A stretch of 64,000 bases of DNA from Candidatus Zixiibacteriota bacterium (GTDB lineage: Bacteria > Zixibacteria > MSB-5A5 > GN15 > JACZUZ01): the NCBI GenBank assembly GCA_024280835.1, contig JAJRPJ010000011.1, positions 248,001 through 312,000 on the forward strand, written 5' to 3'. Below, in pieces: positions 5,603 through 27,522 of this stretch; the first letter of the stretch is position 1; every line of letters begins with the position of its first letter. A model generated the notes under the pieces. It made no database searches. It saw only the letters and a list, made by a program, of their open reading frames with translations, and had not been told where the DNA came from. The position numbers were made by a program, and so were the translations under genes.

Positions 5603-8600
5603 CTACTTCAACAAAACCATCTTCCGTGAGGCGCTAAAATCTCCAGCGGTAATCCTGTAGAAATACATTCCGCTGGAAACGCTTTGACCGCGACTATCTG
5701 TGGCATTCCATGTCACTTTGTGTGTACCTGCGGATTGCTCACCCCTATCAAATACTTTTACCTTCTGGCCAAGGACATTGTAAACAGTAATTGTAACTTT
5801 GGCTTTCACAGGCAACGAATATACAATCTCTGTTGACGGGTTAAATGGATTTGGATAATTCTGACTGAGTTCGAACGAACTCGGTAGGATAGCGACTTCG
5901 TCATCATCAATATCAGTCTGGAAATCAGTGGTAAACAAAGCATAGACACCCACAGCGCTAATCAATGCGCTAACCTGTTTCAAGGACGTGTCAACCACCG
6001 ACTCAAGAACATCCCATCGACCAAAAGCAGAATTCCAATAATGAACCTTCAAGGAATGCTGGTCATTGAAAGTCGACGCGCTACCAATCAAGTCACCAGC
6101 GTCATAATTAATCGTCAACCTATTCTCGCCTTGCAATGCAACTGCGGGATAGACAGAGAGCGCTTGAGTATTACCAGCTTGAAGACTGCGCACGTTTAGA
6201 TTCGCTCTCGCTATAGCAAATGGTGATGAGACGACCAACATCTTCTCGATACTGACATTACTTGTATCAAGGTCGAATTCAGCGCTAGCATCAGCAGAAA
6301 CAGCGAACTTAGCTTTCTGTAAATTGACATTGGCGCTCAATCTATAATTGATGTCGAAGAAGAATGACTTCAACGAATCATCCACGGCATTAATTTCAAG
6401 CGCTCCCTGAGAAACATTTCGCATATCAACAACACCTTGATACTGCAAGGCATTCAATGTCAATCCCTCGCTAAACAATCCAGCGGAGTCTTTCACATAG
6501 CGCATAGATGGGAGAGAATCAAATGCCCGCTCTGCATCCATCCGTAAAACAAAAGAAGCGCTGTCAAGTTCTGCTGAGACGATTAGGGGGAAATTGCCAG
6601 TGATAGGAGACATTATGAGCGTTTGGGCGAATGGCGAACTTGAGCGCTGATTCCCACCGCTAACCACCATTTCACCATTCACCCATCTAAATATTCGTCC
6701 GATAACACCAGTGGAATCAGCAAATGCAACAAACTGACTACCTGATGCGCTCACTGCGTTTCCATCATTAAGTCCTATTAGCCAAATCTCACCATCATCG
6801 CTAGTCCGGCCCTGTTTAACTTTGAATTCATCCGCACCCGTACCGCGGTAATTGCTTACTTCAACATTAGCCAACTTAGCGCCGTCGATATCAGTCAACG
6901 TCCACTTCTCTTCGAAAGCTGGAGAGACGACATTGTTAACATTGAAAGTCATTCGACTACCAACATCATAATTCAAAGTCATTTCACCTGTCTGAGGATC
7001 CGAATCATTCGGACCTGCAAAATAATTCACACCATCTTCTAAACCGTGCTGAAACGGTAGGGCAATTGATGCGAACACCCCTGCATCATCTGGAATATTC
7101 CCTTCAAAGCTATTCTTGAAATGATCCCAACATGATGTTCCATTGAACTGAAACTGCTTCGTCAATCTGCATCCTACATTGTCATAGTTTCTCGACCATG
7201 ACATTTCTGAATTGGCGCCATCATCACCGTTGCGAGGATATGGCCACCCCATAAAGCCCATATTATTTGACACATCGCAACCTGCATTACGCGCTTCAAG
7301 ATTAGATTCACGATAGAATCCAAAGATGTGCTTAGCGAGTAATTGAGCCACCTTACGCCAATGCAATATGTCCGCAGGATTTGTTATATCCTCAGCCGCG
7401 CTCAAATTTCGAACATTAGCCGTTGATGGGCCAAATCCTCTCCGTGGCATGAGTATTAATTCATAGCCTGAACTATATAATGGGAACTCAACATTATTGG
7501 CTACAATCAATATGTCAGCTTTGAACTCTGGACTTGGATCATCGACCAACTCTCGTCGGATATCCTCTCGTATGCTCACTGTATCAAGTCGCACCTGTCC
7601 ATCAAACACGTCATAGAGATAATTCCCAACCATGCGCATACCTGAAACCACACTGTCGATATATGCCCGAGTCGCATCCCATTCGATAGCTATAGTGATG
7701 CTAAACCCAACTGTTGTATGGTTCACTATGATCTCTTGCAATGTGTCATAAGTCAGTTCATCAAAAATCGGATTGAATGAAGTCGGATCAAGATAACTAT
7801 TGTCCAAGGTTATACTGGACTCCAGAAAAGATCCGCCGCCCTCGCGAAGAACTTTCGTAACTTTGATAGAGTCACCCACCTCAAGTTCTCCTGAGCTGAG
7901 TAGACTGGTTAGATCAATTATGCCTTCTGCATCAGTTGTGTAGGTTCCATACGGAGTTTCGGTGTAGTTCGGAACATCGAACGCCACATAAGAGACTTCA
8001 AAGTCTTTCAAGGCTACGGGAACACCATTGTTATCTCGTATTTGAAGCTTCTTAAGCTGTGGCCAGCAAGGCGAAAACTCTGAAGTATTTCCTTCAACAT
8101 CTGTCAATGTCACAGAGAAGAATGTTTCTGACACAACAATTGATGGATCAAGTAAGAATCGAAAGCTCCCAAAACCATCAGGGCCAGTTTGTGCGAAAGT
8201 AATTCCAAGGGACTTAGCGCCTTCTCCACTTCCCAATGAATCGCAAGATTCATTTGAAAATACCTCTGCCACGAAACCAGTAAGAGGACTGCCAGTAACA
8301 CTTCCAAAAACATAGATTCCTATTGGACCAAGAGAGGGAGTGTCTACAGCAATTGTATTTATGAAAGGATGATTCAAAAGGTCATTGGGACCTTCGTCCT
8401 CATCAGAATCGTCATTTTTGTTAAATCCAATCGGCGCGAGATCAATCCCCAGCCCAACATTTGCTGACATACTATTGCCCATTATTGTGTTGTTGAATCC
8501 TGATTGCAGAAACACACCCGAGCCACCGTTGCCAATGATCTCATTTCCTTGAATCTTATTGATATCGCCGCTCTCAACAAATACACCTGAACCACCATTC

Positions 8601-11600
8601 TCAGCAATTCTATTCCCTACAAGAGAATCCTGAGGTTGGGCAAGACCAGCGTCTGAACCAATAACATTCTCAGATGATTCTATGATGTAAATGCCATGCA
8701 ATGCGTTACCCTGATCAAAAATATCAAGTTCGCCGCCCCCCACTCCAATCGTGGCGTTTTCAATGTAATTGCTACCTCTACTCTTGAGAACAATTCCATT
8801 GCCAGAAAAACCACCAATCGTTATTCCTGAAATATCACAACGACCAGCGCTAATTGTCAATCCATCAACCTCAAAAGCAAAAATTACATCAGCGCCATTT
8901 ATTAGAATTTTCTTACCGTCTCGCTGAGACTCACCAATAATACTGACAGCATCTGTTATCTCTGGTAACCGTGTCAATGGTTGGATTATAATTGGAGCTA
9001 GTGGATTTGCCGTCTGTATGTTGAATTCAATTTCATCGAAATTTGGGCCAGCATTGGAGGTTTCAATGGCAGCTCGGAAAGTACACTCTTTCTCGCCGTT
9101 TGGAAGTGTCACACCTGTCCAACATTCTCCATCACTTAGATCAATATCAGGCGCATCACCATCAGAATTGACCACAATCGGCCCTACATAGCACGGAGAA
9201 AACTCCGAAGTATTCCCATCACCATCAGTTGCCGTCGCCGTCAGGGTTCTGTCAAAATCATATATGAACTCAGTGGATGTAACAGAAAACTGACCAAACC
9301 CAGTCGCATCTGTTCTCACAACAATTGACAGCGAGCTCTGAAAAATCATTCCTTCACCATATGTCGATTCATCACAATCCAAGTTTTCAAAAAACTCAAT
9401 CACATAGATCGCAGATGGAGCAGCATCCACAATTCCACGCACCGTAGTAGAGATTTCAACTCCTGCGGAATTTGTATCAACAATAACTCTCGTAATGAAT
9501 GGGGAATTAACCAAACCATTCGGACCCACATCAAGATCGAGAGAATCCGAGACTGTCACACCCAATGGAGCTAGGTCAATCCCCAGTCCACCGTTAGAAA
9601 CTATGCTATTCCCCAGAATTGTATTGCGATCACCACTGGCGATGAAAACACCTGCATCACCGTTCGAGAAAATCGAGTTTCCAACAATATTTGTAAATGT
9701 TCCATCTTCGATAAATATTCCGGCCACACCATTGAATGCGATGAAATTTGTCTTCATAACACCATTTAGACTCTCACCACCAATTTCATTCAAGCGAGAA
9801 TTACCAGTGATTAGGATACCGGAGAGGGCATTGCCCTTTTCGATCAATCCATGCTCACCAGTTCCTATTGTGTTGCCATGTATGAAATTAATTGACCCAC
9901 CGTCGATGACAATACCATTGCCAGGGAATTTGTTAATGAACAACCCCGAAATTTCAGAGCCAATTGACTTTAGGGTTAGTCCATTTACAATTGGTTGAGA
10001 AAAATCAAATGGAATCGATGAACCGTCTAGTTCAACAGTTCCAGCGCTCGGCTGTGTCGCGCCAATAATTTTAACACCTTCGGTAATCTCGGGAAGAGCT
10101 GTCAAGGGCTTGATAACTGGAATCCCCGCTACATCAATATCAAACGAAATCTCATCGGGCCCAGCAAGCTGATTTGCAGTTTCAAGCGCCGCACGGAAAG
10201 TACACTCGGGTCCCCCACCAGGCAGAAAATTACCCGTCCAACAAACACTATCATCTGGAGAAAGATCACCGATATCAGCAACTGAGTTCACAACAATTGG
10301 AGGCGCTGCGCATGGCGAAAATTCTGATGTCCGACTATTGTCTGACATCGTAGCGCTCACAAACCATCGGTCAACAATCGGCTCTGAGAACTCTATAGCA
10401 AACCGCGCAAATCCATCTGGATCAAAATTCAGAGAGTCCGTAACCCACAGAAATCTACCCTCTCCAAAACCACTCGGATCACATTCAAAATTTATGTAGA
10501 GTTCAATAATTCGCGTCCATCCGAAAAAATTGGGACTCTCAAAAATACCTCGACCGATTATACCATAGGCGGTAGCTCGACCACCAGAAACCCTAACAGA
10601 ATCGATCTGTGGATAATTATTCCGCTGTCCAGCGACATTAACTGTGGGGCCCTCAGGAGCAATATCAATCCCCATGTCCCCATTATCATAAATCGTATTC
10701 CCACGAATCGAAATCACATCATCAGCAAATACCCCCGCCCTACCATTATTGGCAATGATGTTACCATGCGGAAGCCCATTGGAACTGGGGTCCAATCCAA
10801 ATGTCTCACCATCGCCAATACTTACATCAGCATCTTCGCCTATCACCTCAACCCCATGACCAGCGTTGCCCCAATCAGAAGCTCCATCTGGTCCCACACC
10901 AATACGACAGTTTTCAATTATTCCGCTGTACTCTCCATCAAAAAATCCAGGCGATGGTCCAATTGTAATTCCATTTCCTGGGAAATTACCAATACCAAAT
11001 CCGCGTACCCTTGGATTAAAACCACTCATCAGCAAACCACTGACACTAGTATCAACCAAGAGCGACCCATCAAGGTTCACCATTCCCGAACCAGGCTGTG
11101 TCGAACCATCAAGGATAGCGTCTCCCGTAACAGGCGGCAAAGCGCTCTGCAGGCGAATAATCGGCCCATTGCTTCCTCCACTTGGAATATCAAAAACGAT
11201 ATATGAAAGTCTCCGAGTAAGGTTCGCATTCTGAAGAGCCGCACGAAGCGTACACTCACCTGGTGTACCTGTCTCACAAATACCGTCGTTCAAATCTGCG
11301 TCACCCTCGTCACTAACCGAGTTGACCGTAGTTGGCCTAGTAAGTACAAAACCCCAATCAATCGTAAGCCCATTCCCGCGGCCAATACAAGTAATCACTC
11401 CATTATCAGAAATACTCGTAGCCAAACGTAATAGCGTGCCACCAGCCCTGTCTGGATTGACAACGTCCGTCAACTTATGTAACCCTGCGTTAAGCCCGTA
11501 ATTATCTTGCGGTAACCACAACACCGCATGAAAGCCATCAGCGTCACGAATCTGACCAACAATCTCACCCAGTATGTTTATGTCATAAGCAACAGAAAAA

Positions 11601-12526
11601 AGAGTGCCAGCCCAAACTTCTAACACCGTGCTTCCGCTCCCTTCCCATTTAACAGCTCGACCGCCACTAATTGCCGTCAAAGGACTCGAAGTTGATCTCC
11701 AAGAAACACCAACAGCCACACCATTATCATTTATTGCGTAAGCGGCGCTAAGGGTGTCACCAGGAAGAACTCCCAAGTCAATCATCGCACCGCCGCCTCG
11801 CCAAATGAATGCATGGTCAGGAACGAAAAACTCACTGACTCTAACATCAGAAACACCAACAACAAACCCAAGATTATTCATTCCATAGGCATGACTAGTA
11901 CGACCACCAGGCAACGTCCCTAGGTTTCTAACTGAAGTAACATCAGAATTAAAAAGCGCCGCATGGATGTTGAATCCTCCCTCAACTTCCACAAGATGGG
12001 ACCCAGCGATTTGTCCGCTATTGTTGATATCTTGAAATATTGTAGTCCTACCGTTAAACTTACCAAAAAACTTTACCGTGTCAGCTTTAAATAAAATCGA
12101 CCTTTGTATACCTATCCCATCGGAAGTCTTAAAACGGATTCCACGAGAGCTGGCGTCAATTCCTATTGCCCAACCAGAGTCATTAACCGCCAAGGCGCCC
12201 TTATACTTGCCATCAGCAAGAGCATCAACATCGCAACCAGGAAAATAGTCAAACAAACTATCGTTCGTCGCAAAAGCCTTACTATTACCTGAACCAGCGC
12301 CTCCAGACGGATGAGTACAATCTGTGCCAAACTTACTAGCCCCCACGACCCAACCAGTGTTACTAACGCAATAAGGCCGAGTTAGACGAGTGTCGGTATG
12401 AACAATAAATGAAGGAACCGCGGCGATTGCCCCAATTGAAGCAATATTGACTATCAAGAAGCCAAATAATAGAGCCTTTATTGACTTCCCAGTTGATTTC
12501 GAATTGATACTTCTCGATAACTTCAT
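5603..12526 (-). CDS. Giant secreted HAF/CSLREA beta-helix protein with C-terminal sorting domain
   Basis: The protein has about 2307 residues from the ATG at 12526, chosen because AAAGGAG lies 6 bases upstream and a signal peptide follows directly (hydrophobic ALLFGFLIVNIASIGAIAA). Residues ~40-400 carry HAF-type repeats (AYAINDNGVAVGVSW, GMNNLGFVVGVSD). Three CSLREA-like modules follow near residues 425, 777 and 1150 (ECTLRAALQNAN, ECTFRAALETAN, ECTFRAAIETSN), each trailed by parallel beta-helix repeats (GNSIFSNGDAGVFI). Residues ~1625-1810 resemble a CLCA-like metalloprotease region, but the position expected for HExxH reads QLLAKHIFGFY, so it is probably inactive. The last ~85 residues are a type A (Por secretion-like) sorting domain with SQNYPNPFNPSTEI and a KMVLLK end. 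It is likely exported and anchored at the cell surface; function unknown. Confidence 0.92.
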   Translation of the reverse strand: MKLSRSINSKSTGKSIKALLFGFLIVNIASIGAIAAVPSFIVHTDTRLTRPYCVSNTGWVVGASKFGTDCTHPSGGAGSGNSKAFATNDSLFDYFPGCDVDALADGKYKGALAVNDSGWAIGIDASSRGIRFKTSDGIGIQRSILFKADTVKFFGKFNGRTTIFQDINNSGQIAGSHLVEVEGGFNIHAALFNSDVTSVRNLGTLPGGRTSHAYGMNNLGFVVGVSDVRVSEFFVPDHAFIWRGGGAMIDLGVLPGDTLSAAYAINDNGVAVGVSWRSTSSPLTAISGGRAVKWEGSGSTVLEVWAGTLFSVAYDINILGEIVGQIRDADGFHAVLWLPQDNYGLNAGLHKLTDVVNPDRAGGTLLRLATSISDNGVITCIGRGNGLTIDWGFVLTRPTTVNSVSDEGDADLNDGICETGTPGECTLRAALQNANLTRRLSYIVFDIPSGGSNGPIIRLQSALPPVTGDAILDGSTQPGSGMVNLDGSLLVDTSVSGLLMSGFNPRVRGFGIGNFPGNGITIGPSPGFFDGEYSGIIENCRIGVGPDGASDWGNAGHGVEVIGEDADVSIGDGETFGLDPSSNGLPHGNIIANNGRAGVFADDVISIRGNTIYDNGDMGIDIAPEGPTVNVAGQRNNYPQIDSVRVSGGRATAYGIIGRGIFESPNFFGWTRIIELYINFECDPSGFGEGRFLWVTDSLNFDPDGFARFAIEFSEPIVDRWFVSATMSDNSRTSEFSPCAAPPIVVNSVADIGDLSPDDSVCWTGNFLPGGGPECTFRAALETANQLAGPDEISFDIDVAGIPVIKPLTALPEITEGVKIIGATQPSAGTVELDGSSIPFDFSQPIVNGLTLKSIGSEISGLFINKFPGNGIVIDGGSINFIHGNTIGTGEHGLIEKGNALSGILITGNSRLNEIGGESLNGVMKTNFIAFNGVAGIFIEDGTFTNIVGNSIFSNGDAGVFIASGDRNTILGNSIVSNGGLGIDLAPLGVTVSDSLDLDVGPNGLVNSPFITRVIVDTNSAGVEISTTVRGIVDAAPSAIYVIEFFENLDCDESTYGEGMIFQSSLSIVVRTDATGFGQFSVTSTEFIYDFDRTLTATATDGDGNTSEFSPCYVGPIVVNSDGDAPDIDLSDGECWTGVTLPNGEKECTFRAAIETSNAGPNFDEIEFNIQTANPLAPIIIQPLTRLPEITDAVSIIGESQRDGKKILINGADVIFAFEVDGLTISAGRCDISGITIGGFSGNGIVLKSRGSNYIENATIGVGGGELDIFDQGNALHGIYIIESSENVIGSDAGLAQPQDSLVGNRIAENGGSGVFVESGDINKIQGNEIIGNGGSGVFLQSGFNNTIMGNSMSANVGLGIDLAPIGFNKNDDSDEDEGPNDLLNHPFINTIAVDTPSLGPIGIYVFGSVTGSPLTGFVAEVFSNESCDSLGSGEGAKSLGITFAQTGPDGFGSFRFLLDPSIVVSETFFSVTLTDVEGNTSEFSPCWPQLKKLQIRDNNGVPVALKDFEVSYVAFDVPNYTETPYGTYTTDAEGIIDLTSLLSSGELEVGDSIKVTKVLREGGGSFLESSITLDNSYLDPTSFNPIFDELTYDTLQEIIVNHTTVGFSITIAIEWDATRAYIDSVVSGMRMVGNYLYDVFDGQVRLDTVSIREDIRRELVDDPSPEFKADILIVANNVEFPLYSSGYELILMPRRGFGPSTANVRNLSAAEDITNPADILHWRKVAQLLAKHIFGFYRESNLEARNAGCDVSNNMGFMGWPYPRNGDDGANSEMSWSRNYDNVGCRLTKQFQFNGTSCWDHFKNSFEGNIPDDAGVFASIALPFQHGLEDGVNYFAGPNDSDPQTGEMTLNYDVGSRMTFNVNNVVSPAFEEKWTLTDIDGAKLANVEVSNYRGTGADEFKVKQGRTSDDGEIWLIGLNDGNAVSASGSQFVAFADSTGVIGRIFRWVNGEMVVSGGNQRSSSPFAQTLIMSPITGNFPLIVSAELDSASFVLRMDAERAFDSLPSMRYVKDSAGLFSEGLTLNALQYQGVVDMRNVSQGALEINAVDDSLKSFFFDINYRLSANVNLQKAKFAVSADASAEFDLDTSNVSIEKMLVVSSPFAIARANLNVRSLQAGNTQALSVYPAVALQGENRLTINYDAGDLIGSASTFNDQHSLKVHYWNSAFGRWDVLESVVDTSLKQVSALISAVGVYALFTTDFQTDIDDDEVAILPSSFELSQNYPNPFNPSTEIVYSLPVKAKVTITVYNVLGQKVKVFDRGEQSAGTHKVTWNATDSRGQSVSSGMYFYRITAGDFSASRKMVLLK

Positions 12527-12731
12527 CAACACTCCTTTGAAATCATATAAATGCCTATACTCCAGCGTCTTAGCCGACTTTCGCACTAAGGGAAACACAC
12601 GATAATAGACAATATAACCCTTATTTATGAATTGACAAGCGCAATGTTTGAGCGCCTTCTAATCGTCAATAATCATTCAAAACAAGAGAAATAGGCTGAA
12701 GCGCCAATCTTACGGCATCGACTTATCTGAA

Positions 12732-13626: not shown

Positions 13627-16185
13627 ATGAGTCTTCCATTGTCATTGCTTCGTCGCGCGCACGTGTCCGCTGCGCTACTCAACAACTATTCACAACAAAC
13701 AAAAGTTTCGATCTCGACCTTATTGTTCATGGTAGTAGCAATTGTAGCATTGCCGATCCTAGGTTTTGCTCAGTGGACAGAGTTGGGGCCATACGGCAAG
13801 AATATTCACGCGATGACACAGGCGCCAGACAATCCCAATATTTTGTTCGCGGGGTCATTCGGTTGGGGCACATTTTCGAGCTTTGACAATGGCGCCACTT
13901 GGGTGAACCACCGACTTGGCTTGACGAACAGCTTTGTGCGCTCAATCAAGGCCCGCAGTTCGGCGGTAATTGTCTGCGGCTCGAATGACAACATAGCCCG
14001 CAGCGCTGACAGTGGCGCAACTTGGGTAGTTGTCCAAACAACGCTGAACTCTGTCCGTTCAATTGACTGGGATCCAGTGACAGGGAAATGGTATGCTGGA
14101 ACATTCGGTGATGACTTGTACACCAGTTCTAATGACGGTGTAACCTGGACAAAGGCTATCGTCAGTGACCCGATTAGTCTGGAGTCACTACATAAGATTC
14201 GCTCGGTAAAAGTCTTCGGTGTAGATTCAATTTATGTCGCTGGTTCCATTACAAATATCACCGCAGGTGGAGCGCTGTTTCGCAGTGTCAATGGCGGACT
14301 GACATGGACTCAAGTGCAGCAGAGCATAGGTGTTCGGAGCACAGTAAATTCGATTTCTGTATCACCGAACTCGCATGCCACAAGCTATATTTTTGGTACG
14401 GCCGCCAATGGCATGTATAAGAGCACAACGGGGGGGTTGACGACGATTCAAGTCAACGGTGATAGCACATTGAATCCGCTTTCTGACCTGGCTGTCTCAA
14501 CAACAGGCTTCACTAGCGCATATCGTATGGCTGGCAGTAGTACACTTGGCAATCTCTATTTGCGCCATCTCGGTGACACAACAATCGGCTGGATAGGAGC
14601 CAGTGGCCTTCCCGGTGGTAACGCGACACCAAAAACAATTCTGGACGCTGGCGGTGGAGCAAGAATCATAGCTGGACTCGACGAGGAAGGCGCCTATGTG
14701 TCTAATGATAGCGGCTTGAGCTTCACACCTCTCTCCCAGAGTCTCCTGCGCACCGCGGTACGCGGAATAGCGTTTACTTCTACAGGTAGGATAGTAACGG
14801 GGCTAGGCTTTGGAGACAAGATTTTCCACAGTGACAATCTCGGATCGAGCTGGAGCCGTGATTCACTCGGCTCCTTTAACTCAATCTTCGATGTTGAAAT
14901 GAGCTCAAACGGTGATATATACGCTGCGCAATACGGCACAGGAGTACTGAAAAGCGCTGACAATGGGACAACATGGGGCAAGACGGACACATTGGTAATT
15001 AATCGCTTTGTTCGCGCAGTGACTCCGGATCCGCTTAACCCGCTTGTGGTCTATGCCGGAACTGGTAATGGAGTGTTCAAAACCACCAACGGGGGACTGA
15101 GCTGGGTGGACGCAAAAGGCGGCGTGATACCGTTTAGTACATCTATTCGCTCATTGAAGGCCTCACCACTGACATCTGGGTTAATTTTCGCTGGAACCGA
15201 TGTTGATTTCCTCTATCGAAGCGCCAATGGCGGCGTAACGTGGTCTCATGTGACATCTCTCAATGGATTCGCCGCTCAGGATGCATTTGTGCGCAGTATT
15301 GGTTTCGATCCAGTGGCGGCGAATGTCGCATATATCGGCTCTGACAGCGGCCATGTGTACAAGAGCAGTGACGCAGGAAACAATTGGAGCCTGTTGGTTG
15401 ATTTGCCCACAGTTAACTCAGTGCGCAGAGTTCTGGTCAACCCGGCCAACACCTCGAACATCTTTGTAGCGACATTCGGCGGCGGTGTGTTTGTAACTGA
15501 GGACGGTGGCTCTACTTGGTATTCGTACAATGACCCATTGATAAGTTTAAAGGTCTACACAATAGAGATGCGTCCAGGGACAAACCCACCCGAACTATGG
15601 GTCGGCACACGCTGGGGCGCTTGGAAGCAAATTTTCACTGGCCTTCCAGCGGATATTTTTCCAATAATTACTGGTCCTGCCAGCTCATGTGTAACTGCAG
15701 GGTCCATGTTTAGCATGAGCTACACAGCAACCGACCAAAATGTGAATGATATTCTGCAGTTTTCGTTAGTTGGTCCAGGAACTGTGACATGGACAGCATC
15801 GACAAGTCCAGATATTGTGACATATCAATGGCTGACATCGATAAGTGATGTAGCGGGTTCGCCCTACACAGTCGACATTATTGTTGACGATGGCGCAGGT
15901 GGACTTGATACTGCAGTTGTGGAACTGACAGTCGTTGATCCTGTGAATCCTACTGGCTGCTCTTGCTGTGCTGTCGCCGGTGACGCGGATCATAATGCCA
16001 AATTCAATATAGCGGATGTGACATTCATGATTAATCGAATCTTTACTGGTGGAGCTGCGCCAGTATGCAATGACGAAGCTGACGCCAACGGCAGCAATGG
16101 TGTCAATATTGCCGATGTTACATTTTCGATAGCTCGAATATTCACTGGAGGCTCTCCCCCAGTTTGCGGTACAACAGGAAGTTGA
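13627..16185 (+). CDS. Secreted beta-propeller (BNR/Asp-box) protein with dockerin-like C-terminus
   Basis: The protein has 852 residues. A signal peptide lies near residues 26-49 (STLLFMVVAIVALPILGFAQ) after an extended N-terminus. The body is an array of Asp-box/BNR repeats of the form S-x-D-x-G-x-T-W (FDNGATW, SADSGATW, SNDGVTW, SVNGGLTW, SADNGTTW, SEDGGSTW-like), as in sortilin/YCF48/sialidase-type propellers. A cadherin- or Ig-like segment follows at ~680-775. The C-terminus has two EF-hand-like dockerin motifs (DADHNAKFNIADVTFMINRI and DANGSNGVNIADVTFSIARI) framed by cysteines. It is expected to act outside the cell, anchored or complexed through the dockerin-like tail. The same tail occurs on the protein at 24232-25890. 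No enzymatic residues are evident. Confidence 0.9.
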   Translation: MSLPLSLLRRAHVSAALLNNYSQQTKVSISTLLFMVVAIVALPILGFAQWTELGPYGKNIHAMTQAPDNPNILFAGSFGWGTFSSFDNGATWVNHRLGLTNSFVRSIKARSSAVIVCGSNDNIARSADSGATWVVVQTTLNSVRSIDWDPVTGKWYAGTFGDDLYTSSNDGVTWTKAIVSDPISLESLHKIRSVKVFGVDSIYVAGSITNITAGGALFRSVNGGLTWTQVQQSIGVRSTVNSISVSPNSHATSYIFGTAANGMYKSTTGGLTTIQVNGDSTLNPLSDLAVSTTGFTSAYRMAGSSTLGNLYLRHLGDTTIGWIGASGLPGGNATPKTILDAGGGARIIAGLDEEGAYVSNDSGLSFTPLSQSLLRTAVRGIAFTSTGRIVTGLGFGDKIFHSDNLGSSWSRDSLGSFNSIFDVEMSSNGDIYAAQYGTGVLKSADNGTTWGKTDTLVINRFVRAVTPDPLNPLVVYAGTGNGVFKTTNGGLSWVDAKGGVIPFSTSIRSLKASPLTSGLIFAGTDVDFLYRSANGGVTWSHVTSLNGFAAQDAFVRSIGFDPVAANVAYIGSDSGHVYKSSDAGNNWSLLVDLPTVNSVRRVLVNPANTSNIFVATFGGGVFVTEDGGSTWYSYNDPLISLKVYTIEMRPGTNPPELWVGTRWGAWKQIFTGLPADIFPIITGPASSCVTAGSMFSMSYTATDQNVNDILQFSLVGPGTVTWTASTSPDIVTYQWLTSISDVAGSPYTVDIIVDDGAGGLDTAVVELTVVDPVNPTGCSCCAVAGDADHNAKFNIADVTFMINRIFTGGAAPVCNDEADANGSNGVNIADVTFSIARIFTGGSPPVCGTTGS

Positions 16186-16273: not shown

Positions 16274-17485
16274 ATGACAGCGCTGAGTATTACTCTTCTC
16301 CTGCTTGTAATCGTGTCGACATACATGATTGCACAGGCCTCACGTCACGCAAAATACTTGCATGAGATACCTATTCGTGTACATGTCAATGGCACACGCG
16401 GGAAATCATCTGTCACTCGGCTGATTGCGGCTGGGTTACGAGCTGGAGGCATAACGGCGATTGCGAAAACCACCGGCACCAAACCACGGTTCATCTATTC
16501 TGATGGCTCCGAAGTCCCTGTTGTCCGAGCTGGCAAGGCAAACATCATCGAACAAGTGCGTATCGTGCGTCGCGCGGCGGAGCTGGGCGCAGAAGCGCTG
16601 GTCGTCGAATGCATGGCAATTAAACCAGAATTACAATCACTTCTTGAAGACCGGATAATCAAGTCCACTCATGCAGTCATCACCAATGCGCGGGCGGATC
16701 ATCTTGACGAGATGGGTCCAACCGTGGCAGATGTTGCTTACAATCTCTCTAGGACGGTGGCTCAGGACGGCGTGCTTGTCACCGCAGAGCGTGAGCGTCT
16801 GCCAATGCTCTGCGAACGAGCCAAAGAGCGAAACTGCTCTGTCAATGTAGCTCTGGAAGAGTCAATTCCCGATACAGACATGATGGGTTTTTCATACTTT
16901 GAACACGCCGAAAATGTAGCGCTCTCACTAGCTGTGTGTCAGGCGCTTGGTGTTGGACGTCAGGTGGCGCTTCGAGGAATGCATGACTCCACTCCAGACC
17001 CTGGGGCATTGCGAATGTTTCGGCTGGAAGTTTTCGGTAAGAAAATCACATTCATCAATGCTTTCGCCATCAATGATCCGGATTCGTACATTATGGTCTG
17101 GAAGCGATTGAAAGCCCGAGTGCCTGCCGATGCGCGCTTTGTGACTATTGTGACAACACGCGCCGACAGGGCGCAACGCGCCGAGCAACTCAGCGAACTG
17201 ATTGCAGGAGAGCTTCAAGCGGATTTGAGTCTTGTCGCCGGCGAGGGAGCGCGGCCTGTAATCGTGCATGCAAAACGTAATAAGGATTTCAACGGCCTGG
17301 TGGAGGATTTTGGTGATGCAACACCAGCCGATATATTTGAACGCGTGCTGGCATTTGCCGCAACAGGAGAAGTTGTAGTCTATGGCATAGGCAATATCGT
17401 CGGAGCAGGCGAAGAGATAGTCAATTACTTTCGGAGCAGAGGAAAAGAAGTTGTTTACGGAAACACTACAAAGTCTAATAATTGA
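16274..17485 (+). CDS. pgsB: Poly-gamma-glutamate synthase PgsB/CapB
   Basis: The protein has 403 residues, as is usual for PgsB. A membrane anchor at residues 3-20 is followed by a Mur-ligase-type ATP-binding loop (VHVNGTRGKSSVTRLI), and by ECMAIKPELQ and ITNARADHLDEMG, all characteristic of the family. PgsB is the ATP-dependent amide ligase that polymerises glutamate through its gamma-carboxyl at the inner membrane. The start follows GAAGGGATGCA. It is the first of five overlapping genes; the 3' end overlaps pgsC by 35 bases, indicating translational coupling. Confidence 0.95.
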   Translation: MTALSITLLLLVIVSTYMIAQASRHAKYLHEIPIRVHVNGTRGKSSVTRLIAAGLRAGGITAIAKTTGTKPRFIYSDGSEVPVVRAGKANIIEQVRIVRRAAELGAEALVVECMAIKPELQSLLEDRIIKSTHAVITNARADHLDEMGPTVADVAYNLSRTVAQDGVLVTAERERLPMLCERAKERNCSVNVALEESIPDTDMMGFSYFEHAENVALSLAVCQALGVGRQVALRGMHDSTPDPGALRMFRLEVFGKKITFINAFAINDPDSYIMVWKRLKARVPADARFVTIVTTRADRAQRAEQLSELIAGELQADLSLVAGEGARPVIVHAKRNKDFNGLVEDFGDATPADIFERVLAFAATGEVVVYGIGNIVGAGEEIVNYFRSRGKEVVYGNTTKSNN

Positions 17486-17942
17486 ATCAGTCGGCCTCGG
17501 TTTAGTTCTAAGTCTCATCTTTAGTGAGACACTCGGTCTGGCCGCAGGTGGAATGGTTGTGCCAGGGTATATTGCCCTGATGCTCCATGATCCGGGGCGC
17601 TTGGTCGGCACAATCCTTGTGGCTCTAGGAACGTTTGGCGCAGTTAAACTGCTCAGTTCTGTAGCATTCATTTATGGACGTCGCAGAATTGTCTTCACAA
17701 TCCTCATCGGTTTCCTTCTCGGGTTGGTGTCACGTGACCTGTTGGTATTTGACATCGGAGGCATGAACTTCGAGTTGCATACGATAGGACTGATCATCCC
17801 TGGACTTATCGCCAACTGGATGGAGCGCCAAGGAGTGATATCAACGCTGTCAATGATGCTGATAGCCGCAGTCTTTATCCGTCTATTGTTGATGATACTT
17901 TCGGGAGGTGATATCGGACTGGGGGGGACTGAGCTACTATGA
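17451..17942 (+). CDS. pgsC: Poly-gamma-glutamate biosynthesis protein PgsC/CapC
   Basis: This is a 163-residue, highly hydrophobic protein with four to five predicted membrane helices. The N-terminal half has the PgsC hallmark (GLVLSLIFSETLGLAAGGMV then VPGYIAL). PgsC forms the membrane synthase complex with PgsB. The start is a TTG at 17451 inside pgsB, preceded by a purine-rich GAGGAAAAGAAG site; no later start keeps the first helix. Its stop overlaps the pgsW ATG (ATGA). Confidence 0.93.
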   Translation: MFTETLQSLIIESVGLGLVLSLIFSETLGLAAGGMVVPGYIALMLHDPGRLVGTILVALGTFGAVKLLSSVAFIYGRRRIVFTILIGFLLGLVSRDLLVFDIGGMNFELHTIGLIIPGLIANWMERQGVISTLSMMLIAAVFIRLLLMILSGGDIGLGGTELL

Positions 17943-19072
17943 AATGGAAAGAAAACAAGGCTCCATCCTGGCATTTGCTTGCTCTTGCGGTGTTATCTTT
18001 GATAGTATTCATGCTGGCAGAAAAAACCGCGACACAGGTCAAACAGCCGCGTTACCGCACGAAGATTCGCGCGGCGCAGACAACGCTGGCGGCCCAACAG
18101 GCAATTCGCGATGAGTTGCACAAGAGGAACATTGCAATAGACCTGCGCAATGACCCTTGGGGAACTGGACTAATTGGCGAGAAACGTACAGTTATCACAT
18201 CTGATAGAGGTGTCATCTCCGCAAAAGTGCTGGCCACGAATCCGAATTTCGCAGCGGCATTTGTGGATTTGCTTCATCGAGCCGGTGTTCGCAAGGGCGA
18301 CAAAGTCGCCATTGGTATGACTGGCTCTCTACCAGGTTGGGATATCGCCATGCTGGCGGCCTGCAAAGCGCTCAAGGTTGAACCTGTCGTGATTTCTTCT
18401 GTCGGCGCTTCGGACTGGGGAGCCAACCGTCCGGATTTGACTTGGCTGGATATGGAGCGTCTGATTCGCGAAAAAGATGTTATGCCGTTCAAGTCTGTGG
18501 CCGCCTCGATGGGTGGTGGTGGTGACTATGGCCGCGGCCTGTCTCCTGAAGGAAGAAGATTCATTCGCGAATCAATGGAGCGATGCGGTGTGCCAATGAT
18601 AGACGGCAAGTCACTGGAAGAGAATATTCAATTACGTATGACATACTATGACGGACTTGCAGATTCCACTGGCTATGCGGCATATATCAATATTGGAGGC
18701 GGTCTCTCGTCACTTGGAGGGCGATATAACAATAAGATTATCCCTGCGGGATTCTCGAGGCGGTTACCTCCAGCGAATTATCCGGTGCGAGCCGTCATCA
18801 ATCGAATGTCCGAGAAAGGCATACCGATTATCAATCTGACGAATGTGCTGAAAATGGCGGAAAAATATAGTTTAACGACTGTCATCGGTCCAGAGGCCCC
18901 AGACATTGGCATTGGAACTCTCTACTTCAAGGGCCAGTACAATATTTCAACGACAATAATGCTGACAATCGCGCTGGCGTTGATAGTCTTTGGCGTGATT
19001 AGAGTTGATATCAAGCACTATTTGGGTCGCCGCAAACGAGTAATGACACCCAGACCAGGAGAGGGAGTATGA
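17939..19072 (+). CDS. pgsW: Poly-gamma-glutamate system protein PgsW
   Basis: The protein has 377 residues. It has an N-terminal membrane helix (HLLALAVLSLIVFMLAEKT), a large soluble domain with WGTGLIGEKRTVITSDRG, GVRKGDKVAIGMTGSLPGWD and GASDWGANRPDLTWLDME, and a second membrane helix near the C-terminus. This matches the PgsW family that accompanies pgsB-pgsC in several bacterial phyla and appears to replace PgsA; no PgsA/CapA metallophosphoesterase-like gene is present here. It overlaps pgsC and the next gene by ATGA, so the five genes are almost certainly co-transcribed. Its biochemical role is not established. Confidence 0.88.
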   Translation: MKWKENKAPSWHLLALAVLSLIVFMLAEKTATQVKQPRYRTKIRAAQTTLAAQQAIRDELHKRNIAIDLRNDPWGTGLIGEKRTVITSDRGVISAKVLATNPNFAAAFVDLLHRAGVRKGDKVAIGMTGSLPGWDIAMLAACKALKVEPVVISSVGASDWGANRPDLTWLDMERLIREKDVMPFKSVAASMGGGGDYGRGLSPEGRRFIRESMERCGVPMIDGKSLEENIQLRMTYYDGLADSTGYAAYINIGGGLSSLGGRYNNKIIPAGFSRRLPPANYPVRAVINRMSEKGIPIINLTNVLKMAEKYSLTTVIGPEAPDIGIGTLYFKGQYNISTTIMLTIALALIVFGVIRVDIKHYLGRRKRVMTPRPGEGV

Positions 19073-19959
19073 AGTCCCAAAGGCGAACATTTCTGACGCT
19101 GGCTTTCGTGCTAGCCGTGACCACAACCGTCAATGTAAACGCAAAGCAGGTCGCACCAGAGTCCGGCGAACTCATGACATTAGATATAGCTGGAAAACAA
19201 AGCACGTATTACCGTATTCAAAAAGACAGTTCACTTTTTGTTACACTTTCAGGCCCTGGAACATTAACAGGGATTGTTCGACTGATTACGCCCTCGGAAA
19301 CCCACACGAATGTCACTTATACACTTATTGTGAGCGACGGCAAGAAGCTTGTTAAAACGCTCAATTCAACAACTTCTTCAAGTCAGTGGAATTGGCTTGG
19401 TAATTCTGAGGGAGCAGGCAAGTCCCGCAAGTTTCATGTGCGCATTGGCGAGGGAAAACACCGGTTGCGGTTCTCTTTGAAGAATACATTGGCATCAGCC
19501 GCGGGAATCAGATTCAATTTCGACAAGAGCTCACCTCACGTAGGAGAGTCACCCCTATATCCGCTGTCAATGCGCGAGCAAGTGACTGTACAGGTTCGTG
19601 AGCGGTCACTCGACTATGCGATAATGGATGCCGAAACACCAGTTACTGTGCGCATCATTGGTCCGACGCGTTTACGGATTGTTTCACGATTGCTCTATTC
19701 CGGCCTAATGAAAGGTCCCAAACAATATTCGATTGTTTCAAGAATGGACAATCGTAAATTACCTGCAAAGAAACTTAAGACAAAGAAGTCGTTCACTACG
19801 AAGATAATTAATCACCCTGAATGGATTTCAGGCCGAAGCAGGACGTTCTATGTGCCGATACCAGAAGGAGAGCATGTTGTCTCTTTCCGGATGTCAGCAA
19901 TGGAGGCCCCGGGAGTGGCACTACGATTTTCTATACCTAAAGAGGACACAAGAAAGTGA
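19069..19959 (+). CDS. Secreted beta-rich protein of the pgs operon, unknown function
   Basis: The protein has 296 residues with a signal peptide (residues 1-24, TLAFVLAVTTTVNVNAK). The mature part appears to be two similar beta-sandwich halves: each has a strand set with hydroxyl- or Pro-rich loops, GPGTLTGIVRLI or GPTRLRIVSRLL, followed by FHVRIGEGKHRLRFSL or FYVPIPEGEHVVSFRM. The internal duplication is visible by eye. It overlaps pgsW (ATGA) and the next gene (GTGA). No family is recognised. Its position between the polymer synthase and an outer-membrane barrel suggests a periplasmic partner for polymer export or attachment. Confidence 0.85.
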   Translation: MKSQRRTFLTLAFVLAVTTTVNVNAKQVAPESGELMTLDIAGKQSTYYRIQKDSSLFVTLSGPGTLTGIVRLITPSETHTNVTYTLIVSDGKKLVKTLNSTTSSSQWNWLGNSEGAGKSRKFHVRIGEGKHRLRFSLKNTLASAAGIRFNFDKSSPHVGESPLYPLSMREQVTVQVRERSLDYAIMDAETPVTVRIIGPTRLRIVSRLLYSGLMKGPKQYSIVSRMDNRKLPAKKLKTKKSFTTKIINHPEWISGRSRTFYVPIPEGEHVVSFRMSAMEAPGVALRFSIPKEDTRK

Positions 19960-21140
19960 AACTCAAATCTAGCGTTGAAAAGGTTCTTAGATCAAGAAAA
20001 CAGTCACGTCGTTTTTCGACAAACATTGTGGCGCTAAGCGCATTGATGTTTGTATTCCTGCTTACTGGCCTTCAGAATTCAGAGGCTCAAATCATCCCAC
20101 CGAGCCAAAAGACAAGAACAACGATAAAGAAGAGTCGTAAGCGTCACAAGAGAAAGAAACGTCCAGCCAAAATCGACGGCTATATCAGAATTAGCAGTTA
20201 TTATGATGACAACGTTTTCGGCTATTCCGATTCTGACAGGACAGTCTTCTCAAACCAAACCAAACCAGAGAGATTCCCAATCGACCAGATTGATGACGTT
20301 GTCACCTCGGTGGCGGCTCGTGGAGATATTGTTTGGAGTAGAAAGAGACGTTCAAACTGGCGGTTGCGCTTTCGCTATGACGCCTCGCTGTATCAGAGCA
20401 ATACTTTCCGTAATAACAATCAATTCGGCGTTGAACTTCGTCGAAAGAAGAGACATTCCCAAACGGAACTCTCAGTACGATGGACGCCAAACTTTTATCT
20501 CAGACATTTATTCTGGAGTTCACTGAGATCATCAACACCGCGCACTCTCACCGACCCAACTTATGCCCCAGCAAATCTGTCAAAAGTCGGATTCTATCTG
20601 GAACGTGAGCAACGTCTCGCGCGTCGACTGTATGGTCGAATTACACTCGGTTATATCATTAAGAATTATGGAGCGCCGTTTGACGAGCGGGACAACAATA
20701 CATTTTCTGTCGCCGCACGGTTGCGTAAAGTTTTCACAAGACGGTTTGAGGCCTATGTCGGCGGCTTTATTGGCACAGTCAATTCCAGCGCGTCTGACTA
20801 TAATGTAGTTGGCATCTCTGATGTTGGTAATACCGAGACAGGATTTAAGGGCGGGTTTGAGCTTAAACTCGACAAGCGTGGCAGATTCAGTTGGAGCGAA
20901 TCCTTTGCATATGCGCACCAGTCCTACAGCACATCAGATGTAGCAGATGTGTTCCACTTCAACCGTTCGGACAATGAAGCCGTCTGGAGAAATCGTCTGA
21001 CGTGGCGGGTACATCCTCACTGGCAACCACGTGTGTTCTATACCCTGCGTAGCAGCAGCACCAATGTTCAACCTGGTGTCAGTGATGTAGGGGCATTCAG
21101 CTCGAATCGTTTCGGAGTGCAAATCCTGCACTACTTCTAA
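19956..21140 (+). CDS. Predicted outer-membrane beta-barrel protein of the pgs operon
   Basis: The protein has 394 residues and a GTG start overlapping the previous stop (GTGA). A long basic n-region leads into a hydrophobic signal segment (NIVALSALMFVFLLTGLQ) with likely cleavage after SEA. A short Lys/Arg-rich stretch follows (RKRHKRKKRPAK), then regularly alternating amphipathic strands rich in Tyr, Arg and Phe, ending in the aromatic QILHYF typical of barrels recognised by the Bam complex. No named family is recognised. As the last gene of the pgs operon it could be the outer-membrane exit pore or anchor for poly-gamma-glutamate; the basic stretch could contact the anionic polymer. That role is inference. 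Confidence 0.85.
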   Translation: MKLKSSVEKVLRSRKQSRRFSTNIVALSALMFVFLLTGLQNSEAQIIPPSQKTRTTIKKSRKRHKRKKRPAKIDGYIRISSYYDDNVFGYSDSDRTVFSNQTKPERFPIDQIDDVVTSVAARGDIVWSRKRRSNWRLRFRYDASLYQSNTFRNNNQFGVELRRKKRHSQTELSVRWTPNFYLRHLFWSSLRSSTPRTLTDPTYAPANLSKVGFYLEREQRLARRLYGRITLGYIIKNYGAPFDERDNNTFSVAARLRKVFTRRFEAYVGGFIGTVNSSASDYNVVGISDVGNTETGFKGGFELKLDKRGRFSWSESFAYAHQSYSTSDVADVFHFNRSDNEAVWRNRLTWRVHPHWQPRVFYTLRSSSTNVQPGVSDVGAFSSNRFGVQILHYF

Positions 21141-22072: not shown

Positions 22073-22891
22073 TTAATGCCCCAGCTGTTTGATTAGAGCA
22101 TCCAACTTAGATCTTCGCCTTCTAGATAGCAGTACTTTGCGTCCATTTTTTAAGAATAGCTCGTAGGAACCAGTGCCTGTTGCCTTATATGATTTTATTT
22201 TTGAAACGCCAACGATGAATTTCCGGTGGATTCTTACGAAACCTATTGGATTGAGACACTGCTCCATGTCCTTCATGGTTCCAGAGATCGAATACCGTTT
22301 GGTGTTAGTATAGATATTTAGCAGATAAGCATCAGACTCGATTAAGTCGATTGATGAAGGCTCAATTAGAACTGTTCCAATGGAAGTCTTGATTCGTAAC
22401 TGATTAGACTCGTCAATAACAAATTCATCAAGAGCAGGCGGAGATTGAATTGGCTCCTTGCTAGTTAGGGACCTTAGCAATCTACGAAGACTTTGATTCG
22501 TACTAGCCAATTGTCGAGACGCAATTGTTTTCCGAACTCGATCAAGCGCTTCATCAAATCGCTCATGACAAAATGGCTTTAGGAGATAATCCACCGCCTC
22601 TTGTTCAAAAGCGGTGACAGCAAACTCGTCATAGGCGGTGGCGAACACTACAGCTGGAGAGTTATCGATGACGATCTCCTTGAGAACTTCAAGGCCACCT
22701 TTTCTCGGCATCTTGATATCAAGAAAGACTATGTCCGGCTCGAGCTCTTCAATCAATGAGACAGCATCGACACCATCTGCGGCTTCGGCTACAACCTCCA
22801 TGTCTTTATGTGGCGCAAGGCAATCTTTGATGAATCTTCGCGCGAGAGGTTCATCATCGACAATCAATACCGTCTTAATACTTACCTTCAT
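22073..22891 (-). CDS. LytTR-family DNA-binding response regulator
   Basis: The protein has 272 residues. The N-terminal receiver domain carries VLIVDDEPLARRF and FLDIKMP (phospho-acceptor Asp58), the conserved Thr/Ala of FATAYDEFAVTAF and the Lys of YLLKPF. A linker precedes a C-terminal LytTR domain (~170-270: TSIGTVLIEPSSIDLIESDA, IGFVRIHRKFIVGVSKIKS). LytTR regulators bind direct repeats upstream of targets, often genes for extracellular polymers or secreted proteins. It overlaps its kinase gene by four bases (ATGA) and follows it in one operon. Confidence 0.95.
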   Translation of the reverse strand: MKVSIKTVLIVDDEPLARRFIKDCLAPHKDMEVVAEAADGVDAVSLIEELEPDIVFLDIKMPRKGGLEVLKEIVIDNSPAVVFATAYDEFAVTAFEQEAVDYLLKPFCHERFDEALDRVRKTIASRQLASTNQSLRRLLRSLTSKEPIQSPPALDEFVIDESNQLRIKTSIGTVLIEPSSIDLIESDAYLLNIYTNTKRYSISGTMKDMEQCLNPIGFVRIHRKFIVGVSKIKSYKATGTGSYELFLKNGRKVLLSRRRRSKLDALIKQLGH

Positions 22892-24018
22892 CGCGACACC
22901 TCGACATGGAAAGGAATAGTCAGCCGAACTGTCATCCCTGATCCGTCCTCGGAAGCTAGGTCCATCTCAAACTCATCGGCATAGAGAGCAACAAGTCGCG
23001 CTCTAGTATTTGCTAAACCTGTCTGAGTACCGAGATTGTCAGCTTCGTTCTTGGGACTGTCGTTTCCGGTATCGCTAACTCGGAGATGTAGTTTTCCGCC
23101 TGCAACACGAGCTGCAATCGAAACAACACCGCCCGTCGAGTTTTTTTCGACGCCGTGAACAACCGCGTTTTCAACGAGAGGCTGTAGAATCATATTTGGC
23201 ACAAGCGCGTCCAAAGCATCAGTATCAATAGTCTTTGAGACTTTGATCCTGTCGCTGAATCGTATAGAGACGATTTCTAGGTACTTGTCGAGCATAGCAA
23301 TTTCTGACATAAGAGTGACCTCATGCGTTTTAACGGAATCCAAAGAGTATCGTAGGAGTTCGGACAGTCTACTTATCACGGATATTGCCCGCCGCTTTTC
23401 ATCGCCAGAGACAAGGGCTGTTACTGTATTAAGAGTGTTGAACAAGAAATGAGGCTGGAGCTGATATTGAAGTGATGTTAATTGGGCTCCCACCAACTCT
23501 TTCTCAAGTTGAAGAGCTTTGATGTCTTTTTCGTGTGATTCACGATAATATTCATAGGCGTACGCAGCTCCAAGCAAGAGCCAATAGACTATGCTAATGA
23601 CGGCTCCATTTTGAAGTATATTCCCTGGCTTCAAGTAAAAGTCTATGTGTTGCTCATATGTCTCTGACGAAAACCTATAACCAATAACTGACTGAAAAAA
23701 GCCGAAATAGGTTCTTTGAACAATACCAAAGGAAAACGCCAGAACAGTGTGAATAGCAATTGACCTAATCGCGGTTTCTCGAGTAATCCTTATTCGAATT
23801 CTGAGCCAGTTTATCAACGGAGTAACCAATCCCCAAAAAGACCAGCCGATGATGTTGCCCATCAAAGTCGATGGTAGCGCGACGTCCCACCCGAGTGACG
23901 CTTGACCATAGTAGGTTATCAAGCCTAAGCAAGCGCCCCACCCTATCCAAAATATGAATGAGAGGAGTAGAAATCTTCCTCGACTCGGAAATGTGTCTGT
24001 ATTCTCTTCGGTGTTCAT
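22888..24018 (-). CDS. LytS-like sensor histidine kinase (His_kinase family)
   Basis: About 376 residues from the ATG at 24018. Four predicted membrane helices fill the N-terminal half (LLLSFIFWIGWGACLGLITY and others). A coiled linker precedes the His_kinase core with the phosphorylated His in LQPHFLFNTLNTV and an HATPase_c domain (PNMILQPLVENAVVHGVE, then TGLANTRARL). It phosphorylates the LytTR regulator encoded next. An in-frame ATG at 24120 would add 34 residues that do not look conserved and have no ribosome-binding site, so the inner start is preferred. The signal sensed is unknown. Confidence 0.9.
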   Translation of the reverse strand: MNTEENTDTFPSRGRFLLLSFIFWIGWGACLGLITYYGQASLGWDVALPSTLMGNIIGWSFWGLVTPLINWLRIRIRITRETAIRSIAIHTVLAFSFGIVQRTYFGFFQSVIGYRFSSETYEQHIDFYLKPGNILQNGAVISIVYWLLLGAAYAYEYYRESHEKDIKALQLEKELVGAQLTSLQYQLQPHFLFNTLNTVTALVSGDEKRRAISVISRLSELLRYSLDSVKTHEVTLMSEIAMLDKYLEIVSIRFSDRIKVSKTIDTDALDALVPNMILQPLVENAVVHGVEKNSTGGVVSIAARVAGGKLHLRVSDTGNDSPKNEADNLGTQTGLANTRARLVALYADEFEMDLASEDGSGMTVRLTIPFHVEVSR

Positions 24019-24231
24019 CTCTATCCCAGAGTTATCGACTATTATCGCCTCATTGTGAACAAGATAATGCATCCGACAGCCATCTGTCACTACTCTTTTT
24101 GAGGAATACATACCGTTCATGCAACATGATATACCGTTCGTGAGAAAGAGCTAGGAGTATTCTCTATAGCTTTGTTAATACTTCTAGAACGATGAAATAA
24201 TCAAGAATGACATAAGAGAAGGAGTATACAA

Positions 24232-26109: not shown

Positions 26110-27522
26110 CTACTTCAGCAAAACCATCTTCCGCGAGGCGCTGAAGTCACCAGCGGTTATTTTGTAGAAGTACATTCCGCTCGCTACTTCTCTTCCACTT
26201 TTGTCGGTGGCGTTCCAAGTGACACTATGCTCGCCTGCAGATTGTTGGCCTTGATCAAATACTCTGACCTTTTGTCCCATCACATTGTAAATTACTACAG
26301 TCACTTCGGCTTTGATGGGCAAGCTATAAGTGATTTCTGTCGAGGGATTAAACGGGTTTGGGTAGTTCTGAGAGACTTCGAAGTGATTTGGAAGTACATC
26401 CAGTTCATCGTCGCTAACATCCGTTGGGATTCTTCTCACCATGTGAGTTGAATCAGTTGCCGAGTTATTCGAAGGTTGGATGTCTATTTCATTAGCGCTC
26501 ACGGTTGCAGTATTTTCGGTTAAACCAGAACCAACAGAAAGAGCTAAGACTGTGATAGTCGCACTCTCTCCAGAACCGAAAGTACCCAAGTTACACTGCA
26601 CAACTCCATCTAGTTCTGTACAATTCCCATGAGTTGTTGAATCAGAAATATATGTAAGCTGAGAAGGCAATGAATCGCGCATGATAACACCGGTTGCATT
26701 GTCCGACCCAATGTTTGTTACTGTAATTTCATATGTAACGGTATCACCAAAAAGTAACGAATCTAAGTTGTCAGTCTTTTCGACAAATAAATCTACTCCA
26801 GGACTTTGAACTACAAAATCTTTACAGTTAGAAAATTCAGAGGTATTAAAATTGACGAAATTATTTGCTGTAGCTGTGATAAAATCTGGTGGAGTACCGG
26901 TAATTTGATTAGTAACAGAATAGAAATTCGAAAACCCGAAATTATCGGTCTGGATTGTATCACAACCTATCCAATAGCCACCCTGCCCTAATCCGAATGT
27001 ATCACAAACTGCATTACCATAGAAATCAATTAAATATTTTTTATTCGGTTCACTTGAGAGAGTTCCTGTCAATACAATTTGGTTGGAACCTGTAATTGTA
27101 GCTGTCACTATTTCAGGTTTATTCTGCCCACCGTTTGGACCGTCATCAATATCTAGGCTGTCATTTGGATTCGGACCGTTAATAAAGAAATCAATTCCGC
27201 CATTGACATTACCTGATATTGAATTAAACCTTATATTATTGAAATCATCAAATTCATCTGATATCAGATCAATAAAAATACCTACTCCATTATTATCCAG
27301 AATGTAATTGGCAGTAGTTATCGTATCCCCACCGATAGAATTCGAATGTCCGTTAATATCAATGCCACCACCACCTATAGGACCACCTTGATTACCAAAA
27401 CCATTGTCTTCAATAAAATTACCGTAAACAGAGCAACCGTTTGACGAAAGTGTTAAACCTGTTCGATGATTATCGAGTATATAGTTCCCTAAATTTTCGT
27501 TAAAAAACCCTATGCCACCAAT
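26110..27522 (-). pseudogene. C-terminal part of frameshifted beta-helix protein (DUF11-like and sorting domains)
   Basis: The frame is open from the frameshift at about 27523 down to 26110. It reads on from the gene at 27510-30704 with more beta-helix turns (IGGIGFFNENLGNYI, SNSIGGDTITTANYILDNN), then a DUF11-like domain (VDLFVEKTDN...VTYEITVTNIGSDNATGVI) and an 85-residue type A sorting domain (SQNYPNPFNPSTEITYSLPI, ending KMVLLK). Taken alone, the first usable start would be the GTG at 27108, which would lack a signal peptide. One base added to the AAA run at 27523-27525 restores a single protein of about 1530 residues. It may be a real mutation or an assembly error. Confidence 0.8.

Follow-up and report, generated by a model that had tools for sequence, protein, structure and literature searches.

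By what route could a polyglutamate chain made at the inner membrane leave a diderm cell? The CapsuleFinder model of the polyglutamate capsule comprises CapA-E only, the outer-membrane component being absent, and diderms need one protein more than monoderms (PMC5542703). Recent work on Cloacimonadota describes CapBCA only (PMC13082233), and the open-licence literature yielded no described protein that takes polyglutamate across the outer membrane of diderms. The question is raised anew by a five-gene operon on the plus strand of the window, i.e. the whole stretch of 64,000 nucleotides analysed here. Its host belongs to Candidatus Zixiibacteriota, within the FCB group, and is a diderm judging from its genes, with seven Omp85 matches as well as LptD.

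A pgsBCW operon with two additional genes

The first gene, pgsB (16274..17485), encodes the ATP-dependent ligase subunit of poly-gamma-glutamate synthase. Its full-length product covers positions 3-380 of the 380 of the TIGR04012 profile (E 1.4e-122), scoring 409 bits against a curated cut-off of 222.7, and harbors a Mur_ligase_M domain and an intact P-loop (NGTRGKSS). The overlapping pgsC (about 17451..17942, TTG start) encodes the small integral membrane subunit, which reaches 127.9 bits for TIGR04011 (curated cut-off 96.45; E 2.9e-37) and also matches Caps_synth_CapC (E 8e-33). They are followed by pgsW (17939..19072), with 301 bits for TIGR04332 (cut-off 100; E 7e-90), and by two genes designated D (19069..19959) and E (19956..21140, GTG start). 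The pgsB/pgsC overlap spans 35 nt, and those of pgsC/pgsW, pgsW/D, and D/E span 4 nt each. The reality of five overlapping genes, proposed by a first-pass annotation made from the sequence, is thus borne out at all four junctions and by the curated NCBI models that PgsB, PgsC, and PgsW pass. A scan for promoters and terminators gave signal at chance level. Since the five-gene arrangement is recurrent in several phyla, it is not due to chance.

The PgsBCA/CapBCA systems of Bacillus have PgsB and PgsC of the same families, likewise encoded by adjacent and overlapping genes. By contrast, the operon of the window lacks PgsA and carries PgsW in its place, together with D and E. The absence of PgsA, already claimed by the first-pass annotation, holds at the genome level: the PgsA/CapA model (PF09587) finds no match in this 96% complete genome, while the same model does find the protein of Bacillus subtilis. 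PgsW, which in the window is 90% identical to that of the MAG Dive100_bin1.56, displays a single TM-like segment at either end in hydropathy analysis. By the positive-inside rule, this suggests an inner-membrane protein whose large domain is periplasmic. Searches by sequence for solved structural relatives gave none that was convincing for PgsW, D, or E. The name PgsW was not found paired with glutamate in the open-licence literature, and an earlier description elsewhere is possible.

Proteins D and E and their fusion

Protein D begins with a hydrophobic segment followed by an AxA-like cleavage site, and its two halves, each a beta-rich domain, are homologous to each other (hhalign probability 99.8% over 126 columns). 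The secreted protein with two similar beta halves read from the sequence is therefore confirmed. The window protein is basic (pI about 10), and so is most of its alignment family (n=20), with a pI of at least 9 in 17 of the 20 members and a few that are not basic (L042, L052, and L053). The predicted structure has a pLDDT of 87 and a pTM of 0.53, so that the relative placing of the two halves is unsure. Comparison of this model with the PDB returned tandem CBM22 domains, PNGase, and the BcsB crown of cellulose secretion, with low E-values but low TM-scores; these matches hint only weakly at a relationship and serve as a lead.

Protein E also starts with a hydrophobic segment and an AxA-like cleavage site. 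Structure prediction, which the first-pass annotation had proposed as a check on its outer-membrane barrel, gave an AlphaFold2 model with 14 strands (pLDDT 78, pTM 0.72). The best PDB folds are those of OmpG and CymA, with a TM-score of 0.70-0.73 on the OmpG length. E resembles these 14-strand monomeric porins in its predicted strand number and predicted fold; it differs from them by its sequence (about 10% identity), its operon context, a YDDNxxxYS segment conserved in the family alignment (n=18), and its partner D. The lumen-facing residues are mildly positive over the family (375 K/R versus 287 D/E, with strand faces assigned from sequence). Ahead of the barrel, at about residues 50-70, the window protein carries a stretch of 20 residues of which 12 are Lys or Arg (TRTTIKKSRKRHKRKKRPAK). 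This Lys/Arg-rich N-terminal stretch, highlighted by the first-pass annotation, is indeed present in the window protein, but it is limited to part of the E family.

Neither protein corresponds to a described family. No Pfam or NCBIfam match above cut-off was obtained for D or E of the window, including with the OmpG model PF09381 for the latter. When the members of the D alignment were compared with Pfam, nothing consistent emerged. The 18 E homologues, compared with both Pfam and NCBIfam, gave weak barrel matches only: two match PF09381 weakly (best E 3e-4) and one weakly touches the PelB barrel model.

D and E form a single open frame in a subclade of WOR-3 (L132, L133, L135, L136, L137, L138, and L140), and gene fusion is classical evidence of two proteins acting together. 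The fused proteins consist of an N-terminal hydrophobic segment, D, in several cases a basic linker (e.g. KLKKKKRKKKKARKRRRRRR in L132), and the barrel, the linker being the counterpart of the Lys/Arg-rich stretch of the window E. Those fusion loci that were included in the PgsW tree all fall in one subclade, so that the fusion likely arose once. As both ends of even-stranded outer-membrane barrels are normally periplasmic, D should likewise lie in the periplasm. A W-D fusion encountered in genome G522 was rejected as a likely assembly fault; pgsB is also split there, and both partners are truncated.

Distribution of the operon and its neighbors

Among 132 genomes of Zixiibacteriota, PgsW was found in 19, D in 16, and E in 17, the latter corresponding to the same 16 genomes plus one 61-residue fragment. 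The 16 genomes with D are exactly the PgsW genomes with B-C-W-D-E loci, as far as contigs extend, and both genes are single copy and located downstream of pgsW (in G126, locus L031, the ORF caller overlooked D, which was recovered by reading the frame). The other three PgsW genomes (G063, G081, and G082) encode a divergent PgsW in a different neighborhood. In one group of families, the operon is flanked by genes for DNA polymerase III delta, an ECF sigma factor with a zinc-finger protein, and PCMT; since flanking genes vary between families, the five genes appear as the conserved unit. When 84,980 species genomes were scanned, 22 loci were returned. B-C-W-D-E occurs in Zixiibacteriota, Eisenbacteria, TA06, WOR-3, and Hydrothermota, and also in Bacteroidota; in a Bacteroidota-centred sample (n=247), it is present in three of the nine genomes that encode PgsW.

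The association can be quantified in the WOR-3 phylum (147 genomes), where W is found in 70 genomes, D in 70, and E in 72. W and D occur together in 66 genomes, W only in 4, and D only in 4 (Fisher p 1e-31, with genomes treated as independent though they are related). Because this p value assumes independent genomes, more weight is placed on the gene order repeated across distant lineages. D lies within 2 kb downstream of W on the same strand in 61 of the 66 genomes; in the remaining five it is away from W, on another contig in four of them. In at least three of the four genomes with D only (G421, G422, and G465), D is located at a contig end. Two exceptions are G455, with B-C-W and no adjoining D or E, and G490, with W and E without D. 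Altogether, D and E are almost certainly dedicated functional partners of the B-C-W-D-E-type synthase. In a Flavobacteriales locus (L056:9762-10601), B-C-W-D is found with E missing, and an unrelated DUF2490-like predicted barrel (a weak match, below cut-off) is encoded two genes on. It is possibly a non-homologous replacement of E, a swap one would anticipate where other suitable barrels are able to fill the role.

The named phyla carrying D and E are all diderm lineages, which agrees with part of what the first-pass annotation had proposed, namely that the two genes accompany pgsBCW in diderms. The proposal does not extend to all diderm pgsBCW loci, since a second type has the same three core genes in identical order and no D or E. 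It was found at nine loci, where B-C-W is accompanied by genes for an AstE-like protein, a DUF6305 protein, and gamma-glutamyltransferase (GGT): three in Zixiibacteriota, one in Ignavibacteria (L059), four in the Bacteroidota-centred sample, and one on a Cetobacterium plasmid (L085), the others being L034, L037, L038, and L098-L101. The hosts comprise Zixiibacteriota order-mates along with Bacteroidota, Ignavibacteria, and Fusobacteriota. The PgsW tree groups the D/E loci in a single 35-row clade (support 94/94), which includes the PgsW of the window, and the GGT-type proteins, whose genes have glutamyl-processing neighbors, branch outside it. The D/E clade also takes in two rows that lack both genes, one being cut off by a contig end. 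The co-occurrence is therefore a property of one PgsW clade. Taken as a whole, the first-pass annotation is partly supported, being right on the anatomy of the operon and mostly right on its meaning.

Other genes recur around these loci. Directly upstream of pgsB in the window lies a plus-strand gene (13627..16185) for a secreted sortilin/BNR beta-propeller with a dockerin-like tail (Sortilin-Vps10 E 2.4e-23). A homologue immediately precedes pgsB in L039-L042 and L051, and similar propellers are encoded in L054, L055, and L097. The position before pgsB recurs in several phyla, with a Por-type sorting tail in some loci. This propeller gene is possibly an accessory and may be a sixth component. 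In L053, L054, L057, L095, and L096, a propeller-repeat lipoprotein-like gene lies downstream of E, with LVIVD repeats in L095. A gene for a large protein comes next in L053, L057, and L095; in the latter two, this protein is a C25 (gingipain-type) peptidase. L096 has a C25 peptidase gene ahead of pgsB. On the minus strand of the window, the operon is followed by a pair encoding a sensor kinase (His_kinase family) and a LytTR response regulator (22073-24120), and large secreted proteins with C-terminal tails like T9SS/FlgD-type sorting domains (PNPFNPSTEI...) are encoded at 5603-12598 and 26110-27108.

Proposed export across the envelope and its alternatives

Trans-envelope export of gamma-polyglutamate by way of D and E, to which we assign a probability of roughly 0.55, best explains the operon and its conservation, the dedicated association of D and E with a single PgsW clade, the D-E fusion, and the predicted barrel fold. 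Judging by homology, PgsB and PgsC would synthesize anionic chains of gamma-linked glutamate at the inner membrane. PgsW would stand in for PgsA next to the synthase, on its periplasmic side, as proposed because of its topology and of the absence of PgsA. The tandem basic beta-sandwich of D may bind the polymer in the periplasm and, in view of the D-E fusions, may dock at the inner mouth of E. The polymer would then reach the surface through E, acting as a dedicated 14-strand barrel, and in part of the family the Lys/Arg-rich segment at the periplasmic entrance could assist its passage.

The synthase-dependent exopolysaccharide secretion systems (Alg, Bcs, Pel, and PNAG) share this plan, i.e. 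an inner-membrane synthase, a periplasmic subunit, and a dedicated outer-membrane barrel (predicted in the case of E) encoded by one operon. Weak likenesses link D to the BcsB crown domains and one E member to the PelB barrel. The operon of the window nevertheless differs from these systems by its presumed polymer chemistry, by the lack of a TPR scaffold and of PilZ (neither domain was found in the five operon proteins with Pfam), and by 14 instead of 16-18 strands. Indeed, the known polymer-exporting barrels are wider, with 18 strands in AlgE and 16 in BcsC and PgaA, and 14 strands are also typical of ordinary porins. The predicted narrowness of E and its closest folds, the diffusion porins OmpG and CymA, count against passage of a polymer. 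So do the only mildly positive charge of the E lumen, the few D members that are not basic, and the departures seen in G455 and G490.

D and E may instead serve to anchor the polymer at the outer membrane, or to display it there, while the crossing takes place elsewhere; they would then do in diderms what the CapD anchoring step does. D would suit this role as a binding-type double beta-sandwich that is mostly basic, the D-E fusion is as compatible with a binder anchored in the membrane as with a channel, and secreted surface proteins adjoin many of the loci. Binding alone, however, has no need of a 14-strand barrel with polar lumen faces, and the operon encodes no other conserved outer-membrane protein. 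This role seems rather unlikely to us.

The porin-like fold of E could also point to uptake or diffusion, with D as a substrate-binding protein, glutamyl compounds being recycled or scavenged and PgsBCW building a periplasmic or intracellular store. The second pgsBCW type lends itself to such a reading, as its AstE-like/DUF6305/GGT cluster, to which Cetobacterium L085 adds a gene annotated as a TRAP transporter, suggests turnover of glutamyl compounds more than export. Yet in the stretch read around D/E-type loci, a GGT match was found only in L097 and AstE-like and DUF6305 genes in none, these loci have no conserved transporter, and the PgsW clades of the two locus types are separate, all of which makes an uptake role improbable. 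Finally, D and E might export as proposed another gamma-linked product or one that is otherwise different, since PgsB belongs to a broad Mur-ligase-like family and, as illustrated by the capBCA genes of Francisella, homology to cap genes does not necessarily indicate a capsule of polyglutamate (PMC4688374), but PgsB and PgsC pass curated equivalog cut-offs over their full length and we hold this to be quite improbable.

With export through D and E as the preferred reading, the odds appear even that B-C-W-D-E, as a complete machine exporting a polyamino acid across the whole envelope, is the first of its kind to be described, with a synthase, a PgsA substitute, a periplasmic guide, and a dedicated pore, conserved over several FCB-related diderm phyla and of a single origin with its own PgsW clade. 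Many diderms possess polyglutamate synthases, and D and E represent two conserved and testable candidates for passage across the outer membrane, and D next to W provides a simple genome marker for locating such systems.
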